From a virus, in IMG/VR virus record IMGVR_UViG_3300028581_000002, positions 1 to 51,834 of that record: a stretch of DNA of 51,834 bases; one strand, 5' to 3'. This document shows positions 16,686-41,057 of this stretch, one piece after another. The translations under genes were made by a program, and so were the position numbers. Every line of letters begins with the position of its first letter. Position 1 is the first letter of the stretch. The notes beneath the pieces were generated by a model, which had not been told where the DNA came from, made no database searches, and saw only the letters and a list, made by a program, of their open reading frames with translations.

Positions 16686-19370
16686 CTAAGTTAATGCTTT
16701 TGATAATCCAGCGGTTGAGATGCCTAAAGCTTCTGCGACTTCTGCTTGTGTGTAGCCTAAGTCAAGCATGGATCGTGCACGAGTGACACGAGCTTTAGCA
16801 ATAGATGTTGTAGTTCTAGGTGTAGCCAACTCTTTAACTCTATCAAGATTAGTGTTCTGTAGAATCTGAGTTAATCTTGATGGACTAACAGCACCTGCTT
16901 GAATAGCGGCCCATTCTTTATCTGAGATCTCAACTTGATTCTTATGCGCTCCTGTGCGTGTTCTTGCTTCTGCTAATGCTTGGTTACGTACCTTCTTAAG
17001 ATCATCGGCATCCATGTTAGGATTGGCTTGAAGCTTCCTATTAACAACAGATGTAGCAAGAATCTGTGCTTGTCTCTCAATTGGTTTGTTCATAAGCGCA
17101 ATGTTTAAGTGAGCTGTTAGAGTGGCAACTTCTGTCTCATAAGCCTTCTTTGCGGATGGGCTATATGGGGTTGGTATTGTGGATAATGCATTAGCTCTTG
17201 ATTTATTACCAAGACCCTTTAAATTATTAGCATAAGCGGCATATACCTCTTCTATGGGGCGGCCTGATGATAGTTCAAAGGCGTCAGATACTTCTGCCAT
17301 CTTTGTAGATTTATTCTTCTTCTCTATCAATGTGCCTTTTTTATTTACATACGACACCCCGGTAGGAGTATAAACTTTCTCACCAGTAATGCGGTCTATT
17401 GGTCCACCATCTTTAGCGCTTCTTGGTTTTCTGTCTAAGACTCTCTTCTCAGAAGATGCTTTAGATACTAGAGTAGATGCGCCACCACGTTTACCATTTT
17501 GATATCTTTCACTTAGAGCAGCTATCCCATGATCAATATATGATCGCCTATAATCAAGGTTATGCTTCTCTGAGTCTATTACAACCATTGAATGCCTAAC
17601 AGCCCTAGCGAGCTCGTCAATAGTGGCACCTTTAATGGTCATATCTGTAATTAGATTAGAGGCTTCTCCCATTTTGGTTTGCTTAGTTTTTGGTTTGATA
17701 GGTGGTATATTGGAACCTTCTGGAATACGGTATAATTCAATAGGATCAAAGTTTTCAAGACCTTTAAGTGATGCAGAAGTCTTTATATATCCTCTATTGT
17801 TTGGTATAACTATGACGGCATCTCCATCGAAGTCTGCTCCAGACATTTTTTGAGCAACCTTTGGATGAATACCAATGGCATCCGGAGCATTACCCATAAC
17901 ATCTTTTGCCGATTTGTTCTTATTGTTTACTATTAATTGGGGTATTTCAAAAGTTCCTCCATGAGGATGACGAATAAGAACTACGGCTTCTCCATCTTTA
18001 TATGTCGGTGCATAAACCTCATTCATTTTAAGCCCTGGAATAGGAAGAAGAACTTTAGATGCTTGTCTCGGTAAGGCTGCGGCTTTAAGATGAACTGCAG
18101 ATGAATCGCAATCATCAGAAAATGCAAGAAGAAGTTGTTTTTTAACAACAGGATTTGTGAGTGCCATGATTTCATCATATTCTTCTTGTTTGTGTTTCAA
18201 AGCCAAATCGAGTTGAGTTTTTGCTAATGGCACTGTTTGTTTTGAAAGTATTTGAGACGAGATCGTTTTAGACCAATGCTCCCAATCACCCTCTTCATTA
18301 ACAATATTAATAGAGCCTCTCTGTCCTCCTGGTTTTATAGTTGCGCCAAAAGGATTATCCGGATCAATTATTTTTTTACCAGTATCATCAGGAACTTCTT
18401 TCATTTTTTTCATAGCATCAAGCTTGTTACCCGTATCCGATTTATTAGTGTTAAATATAACATCAACACCTTTTGGCATGTTATCACTATAAATAGCCAT
18501 TCCTTTTAGGAAATGAGTACCATCAACACCAATACGAACTTGAGCATATTTAGCTCCACCAAGATCTAGATCTTCGACGCCTTTGCGAAGCTCCATAACC
18601 CCATCTTTATCGCTACCACCATCTTTGGCATAGCGAACCATGATTCTTTTTGAATCAACGCTCTGTATTGGTTTTAAACCTAAATCTGAATGATAAGATC
18701 TACCAAAGTCATCAGAAGAAGCAGTAATGCTCTTTATTTTATCAAAATCTCCAGGTTTAACTATATCTTTCCACTCTGTATCTGGTGTACCTAAAACTTT
18801 AACTATCGTAAACTGCCCAGGTATACCTATTTGCGGAACGTTTACCTTATGCACCTTATATCCTTGCTCTTGTAATTCGGCAACAGCAGTGTTTAACTTA
18901 GTAGGACTTACTCCAAGGTGATTGGCAACGCCAGCACCAATATCTATAAATCTTTTTTCATCAACACTTTCTTTCAGCATACTAGCTGTGGCTTTTGTAA
19001 TTGCCGCTCTCTCAGCAAGGATTGGGTCTATGAGACTTCTTACAGAGGATTCATTCCATGTTTTATTTGGAGAGCTCATGCGACGAGCAATTTCCATATT
19101 AGAATATCCCTTATCTTTATATCTCATAGCCACTGTTCTATTTTCTGCTCTACCATCATCTTTAGTTATAGAGTTTCTTGCTCTCAGTTGACTTGTCTTT
19201 ATTCCTTCAAATTTAGCAATTTCTGTAGCGCTTAATCCTTGATCACGGAGTGCTTGAATATGACCACGCCAACCTACAGCTCTTTGATATGGTTCCCCGC
19301 CACTTCCCCAAGGGTAACGCCCAGAACGGCGAGCCATTCCATAATGTTTTAATTCATCGCTCATGAACAT
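16686..19370 (-). CDS. Single-chain two-barrel RNA polymerase-like protein with HTH segments
   Basis: 894 residues. Residues 512-517 read ADFDGD, the metal-binding signature of the beta' barrel of cellular RNA polymerase; the flank matches too (VVLIRHPHGG upstream, then IGIHPKVAQKMSGADFDGDA). Residues about 272-307 resemble the beta-subunit barrel: a lysine-containing FLKGMA (Lys289) followed by DNMPKGVDVIFN, like beta 'KGV...DMP...VDIILN'. Beta-like before beta'-like in one chain is the plan of YonO-type phage RNA polymerases. Helix-turn-helix-like segments occur near 35-65 (LSATEIAKFEGIKTSQLR), 85-113 and the extreme C-terminus (YTQAEVAEALGISTAGLSK). The N-terminus LKHYGMARRSGRYPWGSG recalls the KWG motif of head proteins. 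Start is ATG 19370 or 19364. Polymerase activity is inferred. Confidence 0.8.
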   Translation of the reverse strand: MFMSDELKHYGMARRSGRYPWGSGGEPYQRAVGWRGHIQALRDQGLSATEIAKFEGIKTSQLRARNSITKDDGRAENRTVAMRYKDKGYSNMEIARRMSSPNKTWNESSVRSLIDPILAERAAITKATASMLKESVDEKRFIDIGAGVANHLGVSPTKLNTAVAELQEQGYKVHKVNVPQIGIPGQFTIVKVLGTPDTEWKDIVKPGDFDKIKSITASSDDFGRSYHSDLGLKPIQSVDSKRIMVRYAKDGGSDKDGVMELRKGVEDLDLGGAKYAQVRIGVDGTHFLKGMAIYSDNMPKGVDVIFNTNKSDTGNKLDAMKKMKEVPDDTGKKIIDPDNPFGATIKPGGQRGSINIVNEEGDWEHWSKTISSQILSKQTVPLAKTQLDLALKHKQEEYDEIMALTNPVVKKQLLLAFSDDCDSSAVHLKAAALPRQASKVLLPIPGLKMNEVYAPTYKDGEAVVLIRHPHGGTFEIPQLIVNNKNKSAKDVMGNAPDAIGIHPKVAQKMSGADFDGDAVIVIPNNRGYIKTSASLKGLENFDPIELYRIPEGSNIPPIKPKTKQTKMGEASNLITDMTIKGATIDELARAVRHSMVVIDSEKHNLDYRRSYIDHGIAALSERYQNGKRGGASTLVSKASSEKRVLDRKPRSAKDGGPIDRITGEKVYTPTGVSYVNKKGTLIEKKNKSTKMAEVSDAFELSSGRPIEEVYAAYANNLKGLGNKSRANALSTIPTPYSPSAKKAYETEVATLTAHLNIALMNKPIERQAQILATSVVNRKLQANPNMDADDLKKVRNQALAEARTRTGAHKNQVEISDKEWAAIQAGAVSPSRLTQILQNTNLDRVKELATPRTTTSIAKARVTRARSMLDLGYTQAEVAEALGISTAGLSKALT

Positions 19371-28052: not shown

Positions 28053-28994
28053 TTAGATGAGATCGTTAATAACACCATCAACATTGAAGTCAAGTAATAT
28101 ATTGCGTTCGTTGCCGTTGACAAATGCTCTAGCGCGTTCTCTATCTCCGTCAAATATACCGAAATCTATGAAACTATCACCCTCGCCAAACACCCAACCA
28201 ACAACCGACCCTGGTTTAGTTCTTGGAATACCAAGTGCATCATATACCTCGTTTAGGAACACGTGCCCACGAACCTTAAGCATCTCATTATGGTAACTTT
28301 GTTGACTTCTTAGGAACATTAGATTATATTCCGCGTTCTTAGACCATTGAGTACATGACTCATCATAAAATCTAGCATACAAACTTGGTACGCCTGGATC
28401 TTTAATCATGTTTGTTTTCTTAACTTTACGTACTTTCCCGTCTTCATCAACTTCATTTTCTGTAACAACTTCGCTTCGTAGACCGTTTTTATACATGTAG
28501 TCTGCTTGCTCGCCATGTTCCTCTACAACACGTTTACGATATGCATTAAAACTTTCTTCAACAGCCTTATAAGCAGCCATAAGTGCAACGTTACGTGTTT
28601 TCATGATACCGTGTGCGCCAATAATACAAGCAATAGACGCTATACCAAGCGTAATGGCTGGACCGTAAAGCTTAACAAATTCAACACTTGTCTGTACATA
28701 TGTTACTGTTAAATCTTTTCTATGATCATTTTCGGAATATTCGTCAAGAGAAATATCTCCCTCTTTAACCTTTTCCCAACAATCGTTAATTTTTTCAGCT
28801 TTCGCTTTGTGGTTGTCAAGAACCTCTTCAACTTTAAGAGTTGCACGACAAGCCAATACAGCGGATACAACTGTCCCAGCTACACCAACCACTAATAAGA
28901 TTTCAGGACTGTTTTTTTGCATTACTAGACCGGTACGGCCAGTAATTTTAGAAAGATCTTTCGTTACATTACTCAATACATTTGCTATTTTCAT
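28053..28994 (-). CDS. DUF6353-like membrane protein, copy 1
   Basis: 313 residues. Two hydrophobic helices (about 29-50, ILLVVGVAGTVVSAVLAC; about 110-130, AITLGIASIACIIGAHGIM) flank a short charged loop; a long soluble C-terminal domain follows, with EVYDALGIPRTKPG and GWVFGEGDSFIDFG. A second protein with the same plan is encoded at 37860..38663, sharing the KNSPEI/QNSPTI start. This family is common in gut phages and has no known function. The start has GGGGAC at good spacing. Confidence 0.75.
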   Translation of the reverse strand: MKIANVLSNVTKDLSKITGRTGLVMQKNSPEILLVVGVAGTVVSAVLACRATLKVEEVLDNHKAKAEKINDCWEKVKEGDISLDEYSENDHRKDLTVTYVQTSVEFVKLYGPAITLGIASIACIIGAHGIMKTRNVALMAAYKAVEESFNAYRKRVVEEHGEQADYMYKNGLRSEVVTENEVDEDGKVRKVKKTNMIKDPGVPSLYARFYDESCTQWSKNAEYNLMFLRSQQSYHNEMLKVRGHVFLNEVYDALGIPRTKPGSVVGWVFGEGDSFIDFGIFDGDRERARAFVNGNERNILLDFNVDGVINDLI

Positions 28995-29201: not shown

Positions 29202-29276
29202 GAGAAGACGATACTTTGTTTCCGCTACTGTCACCCTATACTGGTGTATTCACGCAACAAAACTAATCGTCTCCTC
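29202..29276 (-). ncRNA. Structured leader RNA R0 closed by an 11-bp stem
   Basis: Immediately downstream of a conserved TATAAT, the first 11 bases (GAGGAGACGAT) pair with ATCGTCTTCTC 75 bases later with one G-U pair. Inside are a TTTGTT/AACAAA stem and a CACC/GGTG hairpin with a seven-base loop. A U-rich tract and a ribosome site follow. The stem starts within the promoter discriminator, so the exact 5' end matters. It is either a 5' leader for the 49-residue protein or a stand-alone RNA. Confidence 0.55.
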
Positions 29277-29302
29277 ATTATAGACTCTGTATTTACCGCG
29301 AA
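29277..29302 (-). promoter_or_regulatory. Conserved phage promoter copy (R0 leader)
   Basis: TCGC, four bases, AATACA, five bases, TATAAT on the minus strand, the same spacing as the other copies. It drives the structured RNA at 29202..29276. Confidence 0.8.
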
Positions 29303-37859: not shown

Positions 37860-38663
37860 CTATTTCATAAATTTTGGCACGACCTCATAATTCAGAACTA
37901 TGCAAGGTTCGCCCTCTTCTGTAAGTTGAGTGCTAAAAGATATTTCAACTAATCCTTTGTCAAGATCCCAGCCCATTTGATCACCAAGTTTATTTCCTGC
38001 CAATCCAAGCCCATAATATAACTCATTCACAGTCATGAATCCGTCTGTCATTAATGAATGATTAAGATCATTTACAACACGTCTTATTTGCTCAATATCA
38101 TTCTTGAAATATCGTCCGGATAAGCTATCATAACATGTCACACTGCCCTTGCCTGTGAATATAATCTCGTTCTTACTAGCTGGATCCCTTTTTACACGAT
38201 CAGCAGAAATATCATCCCTGACCTTTAATTCTTTATTCTTACCAATAGTCTCGACTACCTTATGCTTGTATTCTTTGAATGCCGCTTCTGTTATACCATA
38301 TAAGCTAGCTAAGGCAGCGTTACGTCGTAATGATATTTGATTAGCACTAATGATACATGCTATGGTTACTGCTCCCATCGTCACTGTAGGAATATAACAC
38401 TTCCAGGTCAACTTCACAATTTCCATCTTCGTCAAATCAGGCAATATCATATCTGGTAGACTATCGTTGTAATATCCTCGATCATCTAACTCCTGGTCCA
38501 TAATTGATAAAGCCCTCGGCGTTGCCTTAACTGCAAATATAACCGTCCCTAAAAGTCCAGCAACAGCAATCCCGGTGAGAATTGTCGGACTATTTTGGGA
38601 AATTACACCCCCGAGGTTTTTTGCCGCTTGAGTTAATCCATTTCCTTCACTAAAACTCTTCAT
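37860..38663 (-). CDS. DUF6353-like membrane protein, copy 2
   Basis: 267 residues, paralogue of 28053..28994. Two helices (about 27-49, LTGIAVAGLLGTVIFAVKA; about 92-110, TVTMGAVTIACIISAN) and a soluble end with TVNELYYGLGLAG and GWDLDKG. AAGGGAG supports ATG 38663. It lies downstream of the tRNA-like RNA and its promoter, with tiny leader frames between. Function unknown. Confidence 0.75.
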   Translation of the reverse strand: MKSFSEGNGLTQAAKNLGGVISQNSPTILTGIAVAGLLGTVIFAVKATPRALSIMDQELDDRGYYNDSLPDMILPDLTKMEIVKLTWKCYIPTVTMGAVTIACIISANQISLRRNAALASLYGITEAAFKEYKHKVVETIGKNKELKVRDDISADRVKRDPASKNEIIFTGKGSVTCYDSLSGRYFKNDIEQIRRVVNDLNHSLMTDGFMTVNELYYGLGLAGNKLGDQMGWDLDKGLVEISFSTQLTEEGEPCIVLNYEVVPKFMK

Positions 38664-38757
38664 TTGTGACTCCCTTCAAGATTTAATCTTCTGTGGTTTG
38701 CATGTCATACTAGCACATTATAAACATGATATTTCTCCTTTCAAGAAAAATATAAAA

Positions 38758-38843
38758 AGAAATGTACAGGATTCGAACCTGCGACATCTAGTGCTTCCAT
38801 ATAATTTCCGCATCTATCGCTCTACCAACTGAGCTAACATCTC
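38758..38843 (-). tRNA. tRNA-like gene R1, anticodon uncertain
   Basis: 86 bases. A seven-pair acceptor stem (GAGATGT with ACATTTC), TA at 8-9, a standard D arm (GCTC-AGTTGGTA-GAGC) and a perfect T arm (GCAGG-TTCGAAT-CCTGT) are clear. The 36 bases between the D and T arms do not fold normally: the best anticodon stem (ATAGA/ATTAT) has a mismatch and its loop TGCGGAA lacks the usual U33. The region is 13 bases longer than in ordinary class I tRNAs. No CCA is encoded; a T-rich tail follows. The promoter's -10 box ends only four bases upstream. It may be a decayed tRNA or a tRNA mimic. Confidence 0.6.
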
Positions 38844-38847
38844 TTTC

Positions 38848-38873
38848 ATTATAACCTGTGTAATTTTCGCGAA
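38848..38873 (-). promoter_or_regulatory. Conserved phage promoter copy (tRNA-like RNA)
   Basis: TCGC, four bases, ATTACA, five bases, TATAAT. The expected start of transcription falls at or within the first bases of the tRNA-like acceptor stem. Confidence 0.85.
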
Positions 38874-38878
38874 TTTAA

Positions 38879-39010
38879 CTAATCCTTTGCAATCAACCGT
38901 AGGATAAATGCTCCTGTTACTAACACGGTTCCAACGAGTAATTCCTCCAATATCTCCTTCTTCCTATTTTTTCTGTACTCTTTCACAACTACAAAATTCT
39001 GTTTTGACAT
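38879..39010 (-). CDS. 43-residue membrane protein
   Basis: AAAGGTGGG selects ATG 39010 (MSKQNFVVVKEYRKNRKKEI), well inside the longer frame, which would cover the structured RNA. A basic soluble start and one helix (LLVGTVLVTGAFILRLIA). It is the first gene after the leader RNA at 39040..39115. Confidence 0.62.
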   Translation of the reverse strand: MSKQNFVVVKEYRKNRKKEILEELLVGTVLVTGAFILRLIAKD

Positions 39011-39039
39011 GGCATTCCCACCTTTCAAATAAAAATAAT

Positions 39040-39115
39040 GAAGGGTAATCTTTCTCCAATCCACGGGTATGTGGTTCACGAATCGAACGTGACTTCCTAA
39101 TAAATTTTACTCTTC
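39040..39115 (-). ncRNA. Structured leader RNA R2, 76 bases
   Basis: The first nine bases (GAAGAGTAA) pair with the last nine (TTACCCTTC) with one mismatch. Inside are a five-pair stem TCACG/CGTGA with the seven-base loop TTCGATT, and a CCAC/GTGG hairpin. The length equals a tRNA, but D and T arms are absent. U-rich bases and the ribosome site of 38879..39010 follow. It is a stable 5' leader or an independent RNA. Confidence 0.55.
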
Positions 39116-39141
39116 ATTATAACATGTGTAATTTTCGCGAC
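39116..39141 (-). promoter_or_regulatory. Conserved phage promoter copy (R2 leader)
   Basis: TCGC, four bases, ATTACA, five bases, TATAAT. It differs little from the copy at 38848..38873. It abuts the stop of the ligase gene. Confidence 0.85.
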
Positions 39142-40389
39142 CTATCTGCCAGCACAATTGTAGCAATACAACTTCCTTGTTTTCTCGTTTTCCACGACTG
39201 TGGTTTCTTCACCACAAAATGGACATTTACGTGGATACTGTTCTGTGTTAGATCTTGTTAGATTCTCTTTAACTTCTGGAACTATTTTGTTCGCTTTGAA
39301 TACATCTAACTTATCACCAACTCCAACCATCAGGTCCTCAAATATCTTTAATGAGTGTAAATTTGCTTGTTTGACAATAGTTCCCTCAAGTGCTAACGGT
39401 TCAAACAATACTACAGGTGTAATCAATCCTGTTGCGCTTACACTCCATTTCATGCCGGTTACAGTGGTTAATGCTGATATATCCGGCCATTTAAACGCCA
39501 TACTATGCTTGGGGAACTTAGCCGTAGTACCTAATGAGTTGCCATATTCTATATCATTAAGAGATAACACAAGACCATCCACAGGGAACTCGAAATTCTC
39601 AACCCCGTCCGTATAATGCTGTATTTGGTGTTTTAATTCAAAATTCAACACTTTAGAATATGGTACAACATTGAATCCAAAATCCCTTAAATGCTCTAGT
39701 TCTTCACTTCTCTGTGTAGTATGCCAAGGTAATCCTTGGAGTAATACAACAGAATGAGCAACAAAAGATATATGTCTTAATAAGATAGACGTCGTTTTAC
39801 TAGCGTTTATAAGTCCTGCTACCATGTTACGAGGATTACTGAATCTTTCACCTTCTTGAGTCTTCTTAATTTGAGCAAACTCACTGATCGATAGACAACC
39901 TTCCCCACGGACAATTACTTCGCCCTTCATAGACTTCATATTTATGGTTTTTGGTACATTACGCATGAGTATAACATTCTTAGTAATGTCCTTACCATAA
40001 TGACCATCTCCGCGACTTACAGCTCTTTGTAATATACCGTCTAAGTAATATAATACAATGGACATACCATCGAGCTTCCATGATAATATACCTTCTCGTT
40101 CGCCTAGGAAATATAGCAAATCATCTATATTTTTGGTATCCTTTAGCGAAAGAATAGACATATAATGCCTTATCTTACCATCTTGAAGCTCTTCAAATCC
40201 AACTTTTGTTGTCGGCGACTCATATAGGGTTACGCCCGTATCTTCTTCCAGGCTTGATAGTTCAGATAAGAACCTATCGTATTGTCTATCAGTAATAGGC
40301 GATTCGTCTTCACCGGAATAATACTTACTCCTAGCATCGTATAGAATATCAATTAAATCCGCCATACGCGCTTCCTTATTAAGATCCAT
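39142..40389 (-). CDS. ligA: NAD-dependent DNA ligase, shortened
   Basis: About 415 residues from ATG 40389 (MDLNKEARMADLIDILYDAR), chosen by AAAGGAGA. The Ia domain (ARSKYYSGEDESPITDRQYD) is followed by the nucleotidyltransferase with the adenylated lysine in KLDG (105-108), the OB fold (GMKWSVSATGLITPVVLFEP) and the four-cysteine zinc finger (CPFCGE...LYCYNC). The HhH and BRCT domains of the cellular enzyme are absent, as in other compact phage ligases. It seals nicks during phage replication using NAD+. Confidence 0.94.
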   Translation of the reverse strand: MDLNKEARMADLIDILYDARSKYYSGEDESPITDRQYDRFLSELSSLEEDTGVTLYESPTTKVGFEELQDGKIRHYMSILSLKDTKNIDDLLYFLGEREGILSWKLDGMSIVLYYLDGILQRAVSRGDGHYGKDITKNVILMRNVPKTINMKSMKGEVIVRGEGCLSISEFAQIKKTQEGERFSNPRNMVAGLINASKTTSILLRHISFVAHSVVLLQGLPWHTTQRSEELEHLRDFGFNVVPYSKVLNFELKHQIQHYTDGVENFEFPVDGLVLSLNDIEYGNSLGTTAKFPKHSMAFKWPDISALTTVTGMKWSVSATGLITPVVLFEPLALEGTIVKQANLHSLKIFEDLMVGVGDKLDVFKANKIVPEVKENLTRSNTEQYPRKCPFCGEETTVVENEKTRKLYCYNCAGR

Positions 40390-40431
40390 GATAATTTCTC
40401 CTTTCAAGAAAAATATAAAACTGCTTTGTAA

Positions 40432-40599
40432 TCACAGCGAAAAGAAGAAGCCTAAGCTTCCATCTTTTTGTTTCTTCAAATATTGACGTTCCTTTATTAC
40501 TCTTACTAATGCCATCATACCAGTATCAATAATCTTAACTGTGCTATATACGCCCAATACCATTATTACTACTGTTATTACTTTACTAGTTTTATCCAT
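40432..40599 (-). CDS. 55-residue membrane protein
   Basis: Starts MDKTSKVITVVIMVLGVYST at ATG 40599 after TTAGGAGGA. One membrane helix, then a basic tail. The end (GSLGFFFSL) is encoded by the terminator hairpin at 40447..40460 read in another frame from the -EA genes. Driven by the promoter at 40629..40654. Confidence 0.62.
   Translation of the reverse strand: MDKTSKVITVVIMVLGVYSTVKIIDTGMMALVRVIKERQYLKKQKDGSLGFFFSL
40447..40460 (-). terminator. Repeated terminator, copy 2
   Basis: GAAGC-TTAG-GCTTC followed by TTCTTTTC on the minus strand. Here the hairpin lies inside the last codons of 40432..40599. Confidence 0.7.
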
Positions 40600-40628
40600 T
40601 ATAAATTCCTCCTAATATTTTATCTTTC

Positions 40629-40654
40629 ATTATATGCTAAGTAATACTCGCGAG
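40629..40654 (-). promoter_or_regulatory. Conserved phage promoter copy
   Basis: TCGC, four bases, ATTACT, five bases, TATAAT; drives 40432..40599. It immediately follows structured RNA R3. Confidence 0.85.
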
Positions 40655-40661
40655 GCAAATA

Positions 40662-40802
40662 AAAAGAATCCGTCGTCGCGTCGAACTGACTATCGCGGCC
40701 CCAATTACTTTATACTTCCTAAGACCGTCCGTTTTCGAGTTGCCACTCTTTCAGGCTTTATTGTTGTAGACAGTTACCTCTACAATCAAACTCTATTCTT
40801 TT
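40662..40802 (-). ncRNA. Stand-alone structured RNA R3, about 141 bases
   Basis: The transcript from the promoter at 40804 carries no convincing gene before the next promoter. Its first bases AAAAGAAT (40795..40802) pair perfectly with ATTCTTTT (40662..40669), which runs into a T-rich tail. A seven-pair hairpin TTGTAGA/TCTACAA with an eight-base loop (40764..40785) and a GAGT/ACTC hairpin lie inside. With its own promoter and end, it is the strongest candidate here for a true small RNA gene. Confidence 0.6.
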
Positions 40803-40803
40803 C

Positions 40804-40829
40804 ATTATACGCTAAGTAATTGCTGCGAG
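40804..40829 (-). promoter_or_regulatory. Conserved phage promoter copy (R3 RNA)
   Basis: TCGC, four bases, ATTACT, five bases, TATAAT. It starts eight bases after the terminator hairpin of the upstream cassette and has only R3 downstream before the next promoter. Confidence 0.85.
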
Positions 40830-40836
40830 CAAAGAA

Positions 40837-40851
40837 GAAAGCCTAAGCTTC
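40837..40851 (-). terminator. Repeated terminator, copy 3
   Basis: GAAGC-TTAG-GCTTTC followed by TTCTTTG on the minus strand, just after the TGA of 40857..41057. One base longer on its 3' side than copies 1, 2 and 5. Confidence 0.68.
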
Positions 40852-40856
40852 TCCTT

Positions 40857-41057
40857 TCAACTAATTTCAAATCGTTCCAATTTCATAATTTCGATTAATA
40901 TCTTTTTGTATGATGCGTCATCTATTTCTCCAATACTATGAAGTTCCTTGTAACATGCAATTGCGTTAGCACGTCTTAAAGAATCTCCTATAGTGTTTAA
41001 TGAGGGTATAGCTTGTAATGCATTTCCTAACCATTTACTATGTTCTCCATTAGTCAT
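40857..41057 (-). CDS. Small soluble protein of unknown function
   Basis: 66 residues, helical (MTNGEHSKWLGNALQAIPSL ... YKKILIEIMKLERFEIS), without a membrane helix, unlike most neighbours. AGGAGGA supports ATG 41057. It has its own promoter (41084..41109) and terminator (40837..40851). Confidence 0.65.
   Translation of the reverse strand: MTNGEHSKWLGNALQAIPSLNTIGDSLRRANAIACYKELHSIGEIDDASYKKILIEIMKLERFEIS

Follow-up and report, generated by a model that had tools for sequence, protein, structure and literature searches.

The window, by which we mean the whole stretch of 51,834 bases analysed here (an IMG/VR record), encodes terminase, portal, head and tail proteins, a holin and an NAD-dependent DNA ligase, and the terminase, portal, head and tail genes identify it as a tailed bacteriophage. 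Two parts of it were compared with 50,697 phage records by nucleotide search and gave no match, and no named phage with similar DNA came up. Relatives (19 from viral contigs) were found via the DUF6353 protein that adjoins the tRNA-like RNA described below, and loci bearing the same promoter are also present in MAG contigs labelled Eubacterium, Lachnospira, Blautia and Lachnospiraceae. The window holds two DUF6353 paralogues (PHROG 2152) on the minus strand, at 28053-28994 and 37860-38663, the second of which matches 246 named phage records. On the same strand, the protein encoded at 32527-32961 matches Pfam Tad3 at E 1.9e-31; Tad3 inhibits the type I Thoeris defence against phages. The features under study are as follows.

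16686..19370, minus strand: RNA polymerase candidate P0001, 894 aa, with an SGADFDGD motif; proposed reader of the promoter
29202..29276, minus strand: fourth RNA cassette; the relative G001 has a family D RNA between the same flanks
29274..29301, minus strand: promoter of the fourth RNA cassette, weight-matrix site
38741..38758, minus strand: U-rich tail 3' of the acceptor stem, with no CCA encoded
38758..38847, minus strand: tRNA-like RNA, from the first base after TATAAT to the U-run; acceptor, D and T arms with a 36-base centre and no anticodon
38784..38819, minus strand: centre in place of anticodon arm and variable loop, 36 bases; best fold TAG-A-TGC/GCA-CTA with a 15-base loop
38845..38872, minus strand: promoter TCGCGAAAATTACACAGGTTATAATGAA of the tRNA-like RNA, weight-matrix site, one of 12 in the window
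39040..39115, minus strand: sibling RNA of family D, with a closing stem and a T-arm-like hairpin TCACG-TTCGATT-CGTGA; relatives in G001 and G013
39113..39140, minus strand: second promoter copy, found as a repeat and by weight matrix
40662..40803, minus strand: family C sibling RNA of about 140 bases, with a relative in G004 and a comparable 3' hairpin in G007
40801..40828, minus strand: promoter of the family C sibling, weight-matrix site

Structure of the tRNA-like RNA and its relatives

The cloverleaf part of the RNA occupies 38843-38758 on the minus strand. Its acceptor stem (GAGATGT/ACATTTC) is paired at 7/7 positions with one G-U, the D stem is GCTC/GAGC, and the T stem (GCAGG/CCTGT, 5/5 paired) carries the T loop TTCGAAT. 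The Rfam tRNA model (RF00005) scores it at 47.6 bits when the whole window is searched (cut-off 29, E 3.7e-7), and the outer arms are as intact as an earlier note on this DNA had described them. In the anticodon region the alignment passes over 22 bases of the RNA, against 9 in the model. That note's estimate of a centre about 13 bases too long is right, because 32 of 36 promoter-free matches to the same regular expression have a 23-base centre against 36 bases here. ARAGORN does call a tRNA, labelled tRNA-Pro(cgg), yet not one with a normal anticodon arm, since position 33 is G and an A-A mismatch closes the loop; the abnormal arm without U33 had been noted beforehand. By ARAGORN and by Rfam the RNA lacks a normal 7-base loop with its U33 and anticodon triplet, as do the promoter-linked relatives compared. 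Folding energy is unremarkable (z -0.54) and uninformative as evidence, and the case for the RNA rests on the tRNA model and on comparison with relatives.

Several further searches were made at the RNA. A permissive Rfam search of window positions 38600-41000 and five loci returned nothing but tRNA above the gathering cut-off, ARAGORN called no tmRNA, and an exact search of viral contigs with the D arm and the start of the centre gave no match. The G3-U70 pair, an alanine signal of tRNA, is present here and in just 4 of the 15 RNAs of the alignment described below; alanine identity was rejected because most relatives are without the pair. No CCA is encoded, and in most relatives the base that follows the acceptor is able to form an outward pair. 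An open frame of about 18-19 codons runs from the centre onward; that it encodes a tag peptide or a concealed gene was likewise rejected, since the G028 homologue ends after three codons (ATG CTG AAT TAA). Behind the RNA (38725-38708, minus strand) a good ribosome-binding site opens onto a frame of five codons; the gene that G001 has in its place is 63 codons long.

The relatives show more than random sequence at this RNA, with intact outer arms and varied, anticodon-free centres. In an alignment of 15 RNAs, 91.7% of cells are paired under a cloverleaf with a short central helix; both sides have changed in 17 of the 21 pairs, and covariation is 0.634 vs 0.241 in shuffled alignments (0/500), in all four helices. 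RNAalifold, unprompted, returned the same four helices and an eighth acceptor pair. The elbow bases U8, A14, R15-Y48, U54, U55, C56, R57 and A58 are kept in 13-15 of the 15, so that, together with the helices, the L-shape is retained and the code-reading end is not.

The missing anticodon separates promoter-linked RNAs from other tRNAs. Among 108 distinct ARAGORN calls, a 7-base loop with U33 is found in 0/12 behind the promoter vs 92/96 others (Fisher p 6.5e-13), with the L080 RNA, near the end of its locus, counted as promoter-free though its promoter scores 34.5. By the independent regular expression, centres are 20-36 bases and never 23 in 14 promoter-linked RNAs, vs 23 in 32/36 others; two short centres counted as promoter-free, those of L181 and of the L153/L168 phage's second RNA, come from phages that do carry the promoter. 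A centre could be read in 22 of 26 tRNA-like RNAs (G028c, G007_E, G013_F and P1046 are left out of the count), and none has a 7-base loop. Fourteen have a 4-base loop (the hairpins of G009 and L178 were read by eye), two have 5 bases, three have 6, one has 8, the window RNA has 15 and one is without an arm. Many of the caps are GNRA or UUCG, and 8 of the 14 4-base loops are GNRA or UNCG (chance 1.7e-8). Most of these anticodon-free centres are shorter than normal; the window RNA is an outlier, with a longer centre and a weak fold.

These comparisons also bear on how the centre arose. TAGATG does occur twice, as the earlier note stated, but duplication as the cause is not supported: the repeat is poor evidence for it because the second copy falls within a block that relatives conserve (CTAGATGTC in G009, CAAGATGTC in L153). 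An intron or insertion in a normal tRNA was rejected, most relatives' centres being shorter and not longer. The options of decay, insert and mimic had all been raised at the outset; relatives that keep the outer arms, have anticodon-free centres and covary in four helices favour the mimic and disfavour decay and a single insertion. A tRNA gene in decay is a very improbable account of the missing anticodon and of the G-U pairs in the acceptor and T stems, because decay would not repeatedly yield covarying helices across 15 RNAs with elbow bases kept, 0/12 normal promoter-linked calls and stable 4-base caps far above chance.

Anticodon-free tRNAs were also sought without regard to the promoter. 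A search of viral contigs for a D arm with a GNRA-capped centre turned up five loci, of which one has the promoter and the other four (L191, L192, L193 and L194) lack it; L191 and L193 carry the same RNA. In L191/L193 and L194, which are larger phages, the capped tRNAs (L191:1372-1442, L193:10725-10795, L194:1667-1736) stand among ordinary tRNA genes. Such RNAs thus extend past this phage group and do not require the polymerase, since these phages carry them without the promoter. Two other loci are of note. The promoter-linked tRNA-like RNA at L167:11416-11491 has an 8-base loop, immediately precedes ordinary tRNAs and is possibly a frameshift tRNA, and from L181:15485 onward Lactococcus phage P1046, isolated on Lactococcus lactis, has a tRNA-like core within a larger closed RNA behind a variant promoter.

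The promoter, the phage polymerase and the RNA cassettes

The promoter motif TCGCnnnAATTACATannCTATAATGAA was found from repeats around the window RNA, and the window contains it 12 times. Across 20 related phage records (708,762 bases) there are 238 sites at the scoring threshold, on a single strand per record, vs 0 in 3 shuffles, and in a wider set 339 sites in 32/33 records, again on a single strand in each. Distances from promoter to gene are mostly 20-60 bases; for 57 of the 238 sites the gene lies over 65 bases off or none was identified, and many copies precede small RNAs rather than genes. The motif is also present in Arthrobacter phage Lewando and Streptomyces phage Rima and, in weaker form, in Lactococcus phage P1046. 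These three have widely different hosts, an argument against a host sigma factor as the reader of the motif.

At the window RNA, TATAAT ends four bases ahead of the acceptor stem, as previously reported. Among 44 RNAs with a terminal helix, 20 have it end exactly at the first base after TATAAT. This suggests, with moderate strength because a U-run alone can make part of the boundary, a transcription start at that base and an acceptor stem of more than seven pairs reaching into the U-run. The proposal that a mature 5' end might form without RNase P is supported by the same boundary, with the same partial confounding by the U-run.

P0001 matches PHROG 4291, labelled RNA-dependent RNA polymerase, at 1210 bits, and its DFDGD catalytic motif is invariant in two alignments of eight sequences. 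A PDB sequence search with P0001 gave no match. The AlphaFold model is of moderate quality (pLDDT 72, pTM 0.48); most of the 50 structural matches listed for it are large subunits of cellular RNA polymerases, all weak (best E 6.3e-3, TM 0.09; none with E at or below 0.001). The gene is found in 250 named phage records, often labelled as a helix-turn-helix protein among the 60 matches listed. Gene and promoter mostly occur together: the polymerase gene is present in 18/20 promoter-bearing IMG/VR records of at least 40 kb vs 0/5 promoter-free records that long, the promoter of G021, G035, G037, G039, G040, G046-G048 and G050 having been scored on loci only. Of the loci fetched by the polymerase alone, 8/9 carry the promoter. 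The promoter occurs without a real polymerase match in G011 (a stub), G028 and MT835485; Lewando has the polymerase. From this co-occurrence across records and loci, on which the link rests, the promoter is probably read by the phage's DFDGD-type polymerase, and this polymerase family thereby gains a promoter candidate.

A closing stem with a U-run follows 38/339 promoters vs 51/1980 random positions and 6/244 other -10-like positions, so as a general criterion for RNAs it is enriched at promoters and misses many RNAs. The records and loci used for counting contain 439 promoters; 85 units of RNA type were counted there, which fall into 50 sequence clusters, and 85 is an upper figure because some are long leaders or genes with an unrecognised start. 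A T-loop (TTCRA) hairpin is found in 27/85 units vs 59/4,800 background windows. No cluster is larger than that of the tRNA-like RNAs, with 17 members and another 5 in a related family. Families B, C and D also recur, and the sibling RNAs match no Rfam family in the parts searched. Two other promoter-driven RNAs, from L069:2594 onward and at G020:27717-27829, hold several near-identical hairpins within one closing stem.

The cassettes differ between close relatives. G001, the closest relative, shares the promoter and downstream flank of window position 29276, with a different RNA between them, and that RNA is the one found at window position 39115 (113 bases aligned, 89%). At the window's tRNA-like site, G001 carries a family B RNA. 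Exchange of cassettes between close relatives, as these alignments indicate, fits an arms race.

Function and alternative readings

The conserved helices, elbow bases and anticodon-free centres very probably mark a real, selected class of non-decoding tRNA-like RNAs. As an overall explanation we lean towards a tRNA-shaped, non-decoding small non-coding RNA that is made by the phage and acts by its shape. The phage's own DFDGD-type polymerase would transcribe the RNA during infection; its 5' end would be the first base after TATAAT and its 3' end would lie at the U-run, so that no tRNA processing would be needed. The RNA could then serve as an uncuttable, untranslatable competitor for a protein that recognises the elbow of acceptor, T and D arms, candidate targets being a tRNA-processing enzyme or a tRNA-targeting anti-phage defence. 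We favour such a decoy function as a guess, given that it is the elbow that has been preserved and that close relatives have different cassettes, though as a specific role it is still doubtful. Defences that attack tRNA are known: Septu cleaves tRNA-Tyr in its variable loop, according to the accessible text of PMC13096335. Taken together, we tentatively propose, at less than even confidence, a new class of phage non-coding RNAs, comprising anticodon-free tRNA mimics and T-arm-bearing siblings, served by a DFDGD polymerase and a dedicated promoter, carried in exchangeable one-RNA cassettes, and occupying elbow-recognising host or defence proteins.

The tRNA fold might instead be a protective scaffold, stabilised by the elbow, for an RNA that acts by base pairing or as a cis leader. 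The ribosome-binding site and start codon (38725) follow the RNA with no promoter between, the central arm is the most variable part, and the window RNA has a 15-base open loop; given that long loop, a scaffold for base pairing or a cis leader is possible for the window RNA. Overall this reading is rather unlikely, as the closed 4-base loop of most relatives leaves nothing to pair, the RNA in G002, G009 and G013 is followed by a separate -10-like element or promoter for the next gene, and the downstream frame in the window is 5 codons only.

It is improbable that these are working tRNAs with unusual decoding (frameshift or four-base) or a removable insert: the 8-base loop of L167 beside ordinary tRNAs and the ARAGORN tRNA-Pro call would suit such a role, but 4-base loops cannot present an anticodon, there is no CCA, the acceptor helix extends beyond seven pairs and centre lengths span 18-36 bases.

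Small RNAs copied by phage polymerases are known, and the RNA might be a template or regulator of the phage polymerase, with sealed ends and a tRNA-like tag for RNA-dependent copying or binding. Its two complementary ends and the PHROGs label of the polymerase family would agree with this, yet a terminator also needs complementary ends and capped tRNAs are found in phages without the promoter. YonO, the only enzyme of this general kind with direct data, is described as DNA-dependent in the accessible text of PMC5467207, and a role as template or regulator is equally improbable.

The preferred reading, an RNA acting by shape, can be taken to the bench: Lactococcus phage P1046, Arthrobacter phage Lewando and Streptomyces phage Rima are named, cultivable phages of the same group, in which questions about both RNA and promoter are testable.

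Comparison with known systems

No description of such RNAs was found in open papers; subscription papers and preprints were mostly outside coverage. Plant-virus tRNA-like structures, which lie at the 3' end of genomic RNA, are likewise virus-encoded tRNA look-alikes, whereas the present RNAs are separate short cassettes of a DNA phage. The pseudo-tRNAs of Bacillus cereus are tRNA-like RNAs thought not to serve translation; they are found in the host genome, unlike the promoter-linked phage cassettes seen here. In tmRNA no D stem is expected, unlike the window RNA, which has one and shows neither an ARAGORN tmRNA call nor a conserved tag frame (the G028 homologue is cut short). The likeness to tmRNA is a tRNA-like domain without an anticodon, as the accessible text of PMC3985003 describes it.

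YonO, which serves late transcription in phage SPbeta, is a single-chain phage polymerase like P0001 in general kind. The promoter present here was not found in the SPbeta stretch of 35 kb examined, and the accessible text of PMC5467207 leaves the promoter of YonO open. SPbeta also has about 1.7 kb without annotated genes between yonK and yonN (L195:4154-5834), with an Rfam DUF3800-VIII RNA match at 4475-4410.

Ordinary phage tRNAs (RF00005) have the acceptor, D and T arms and the elbow bases in common with the window RNA class. Unlike them, the class is without a 7-base loop, an anticodon and CCA, its acceptor is sealed into the U-run, and it has its own phage promoter. Phage-borne tRNAs are usually taken as help for translation; a phage group that keeps the tRNA shape and repeatedly drops its code-reading part, with various stable caps in its place, points to a use outside translation.
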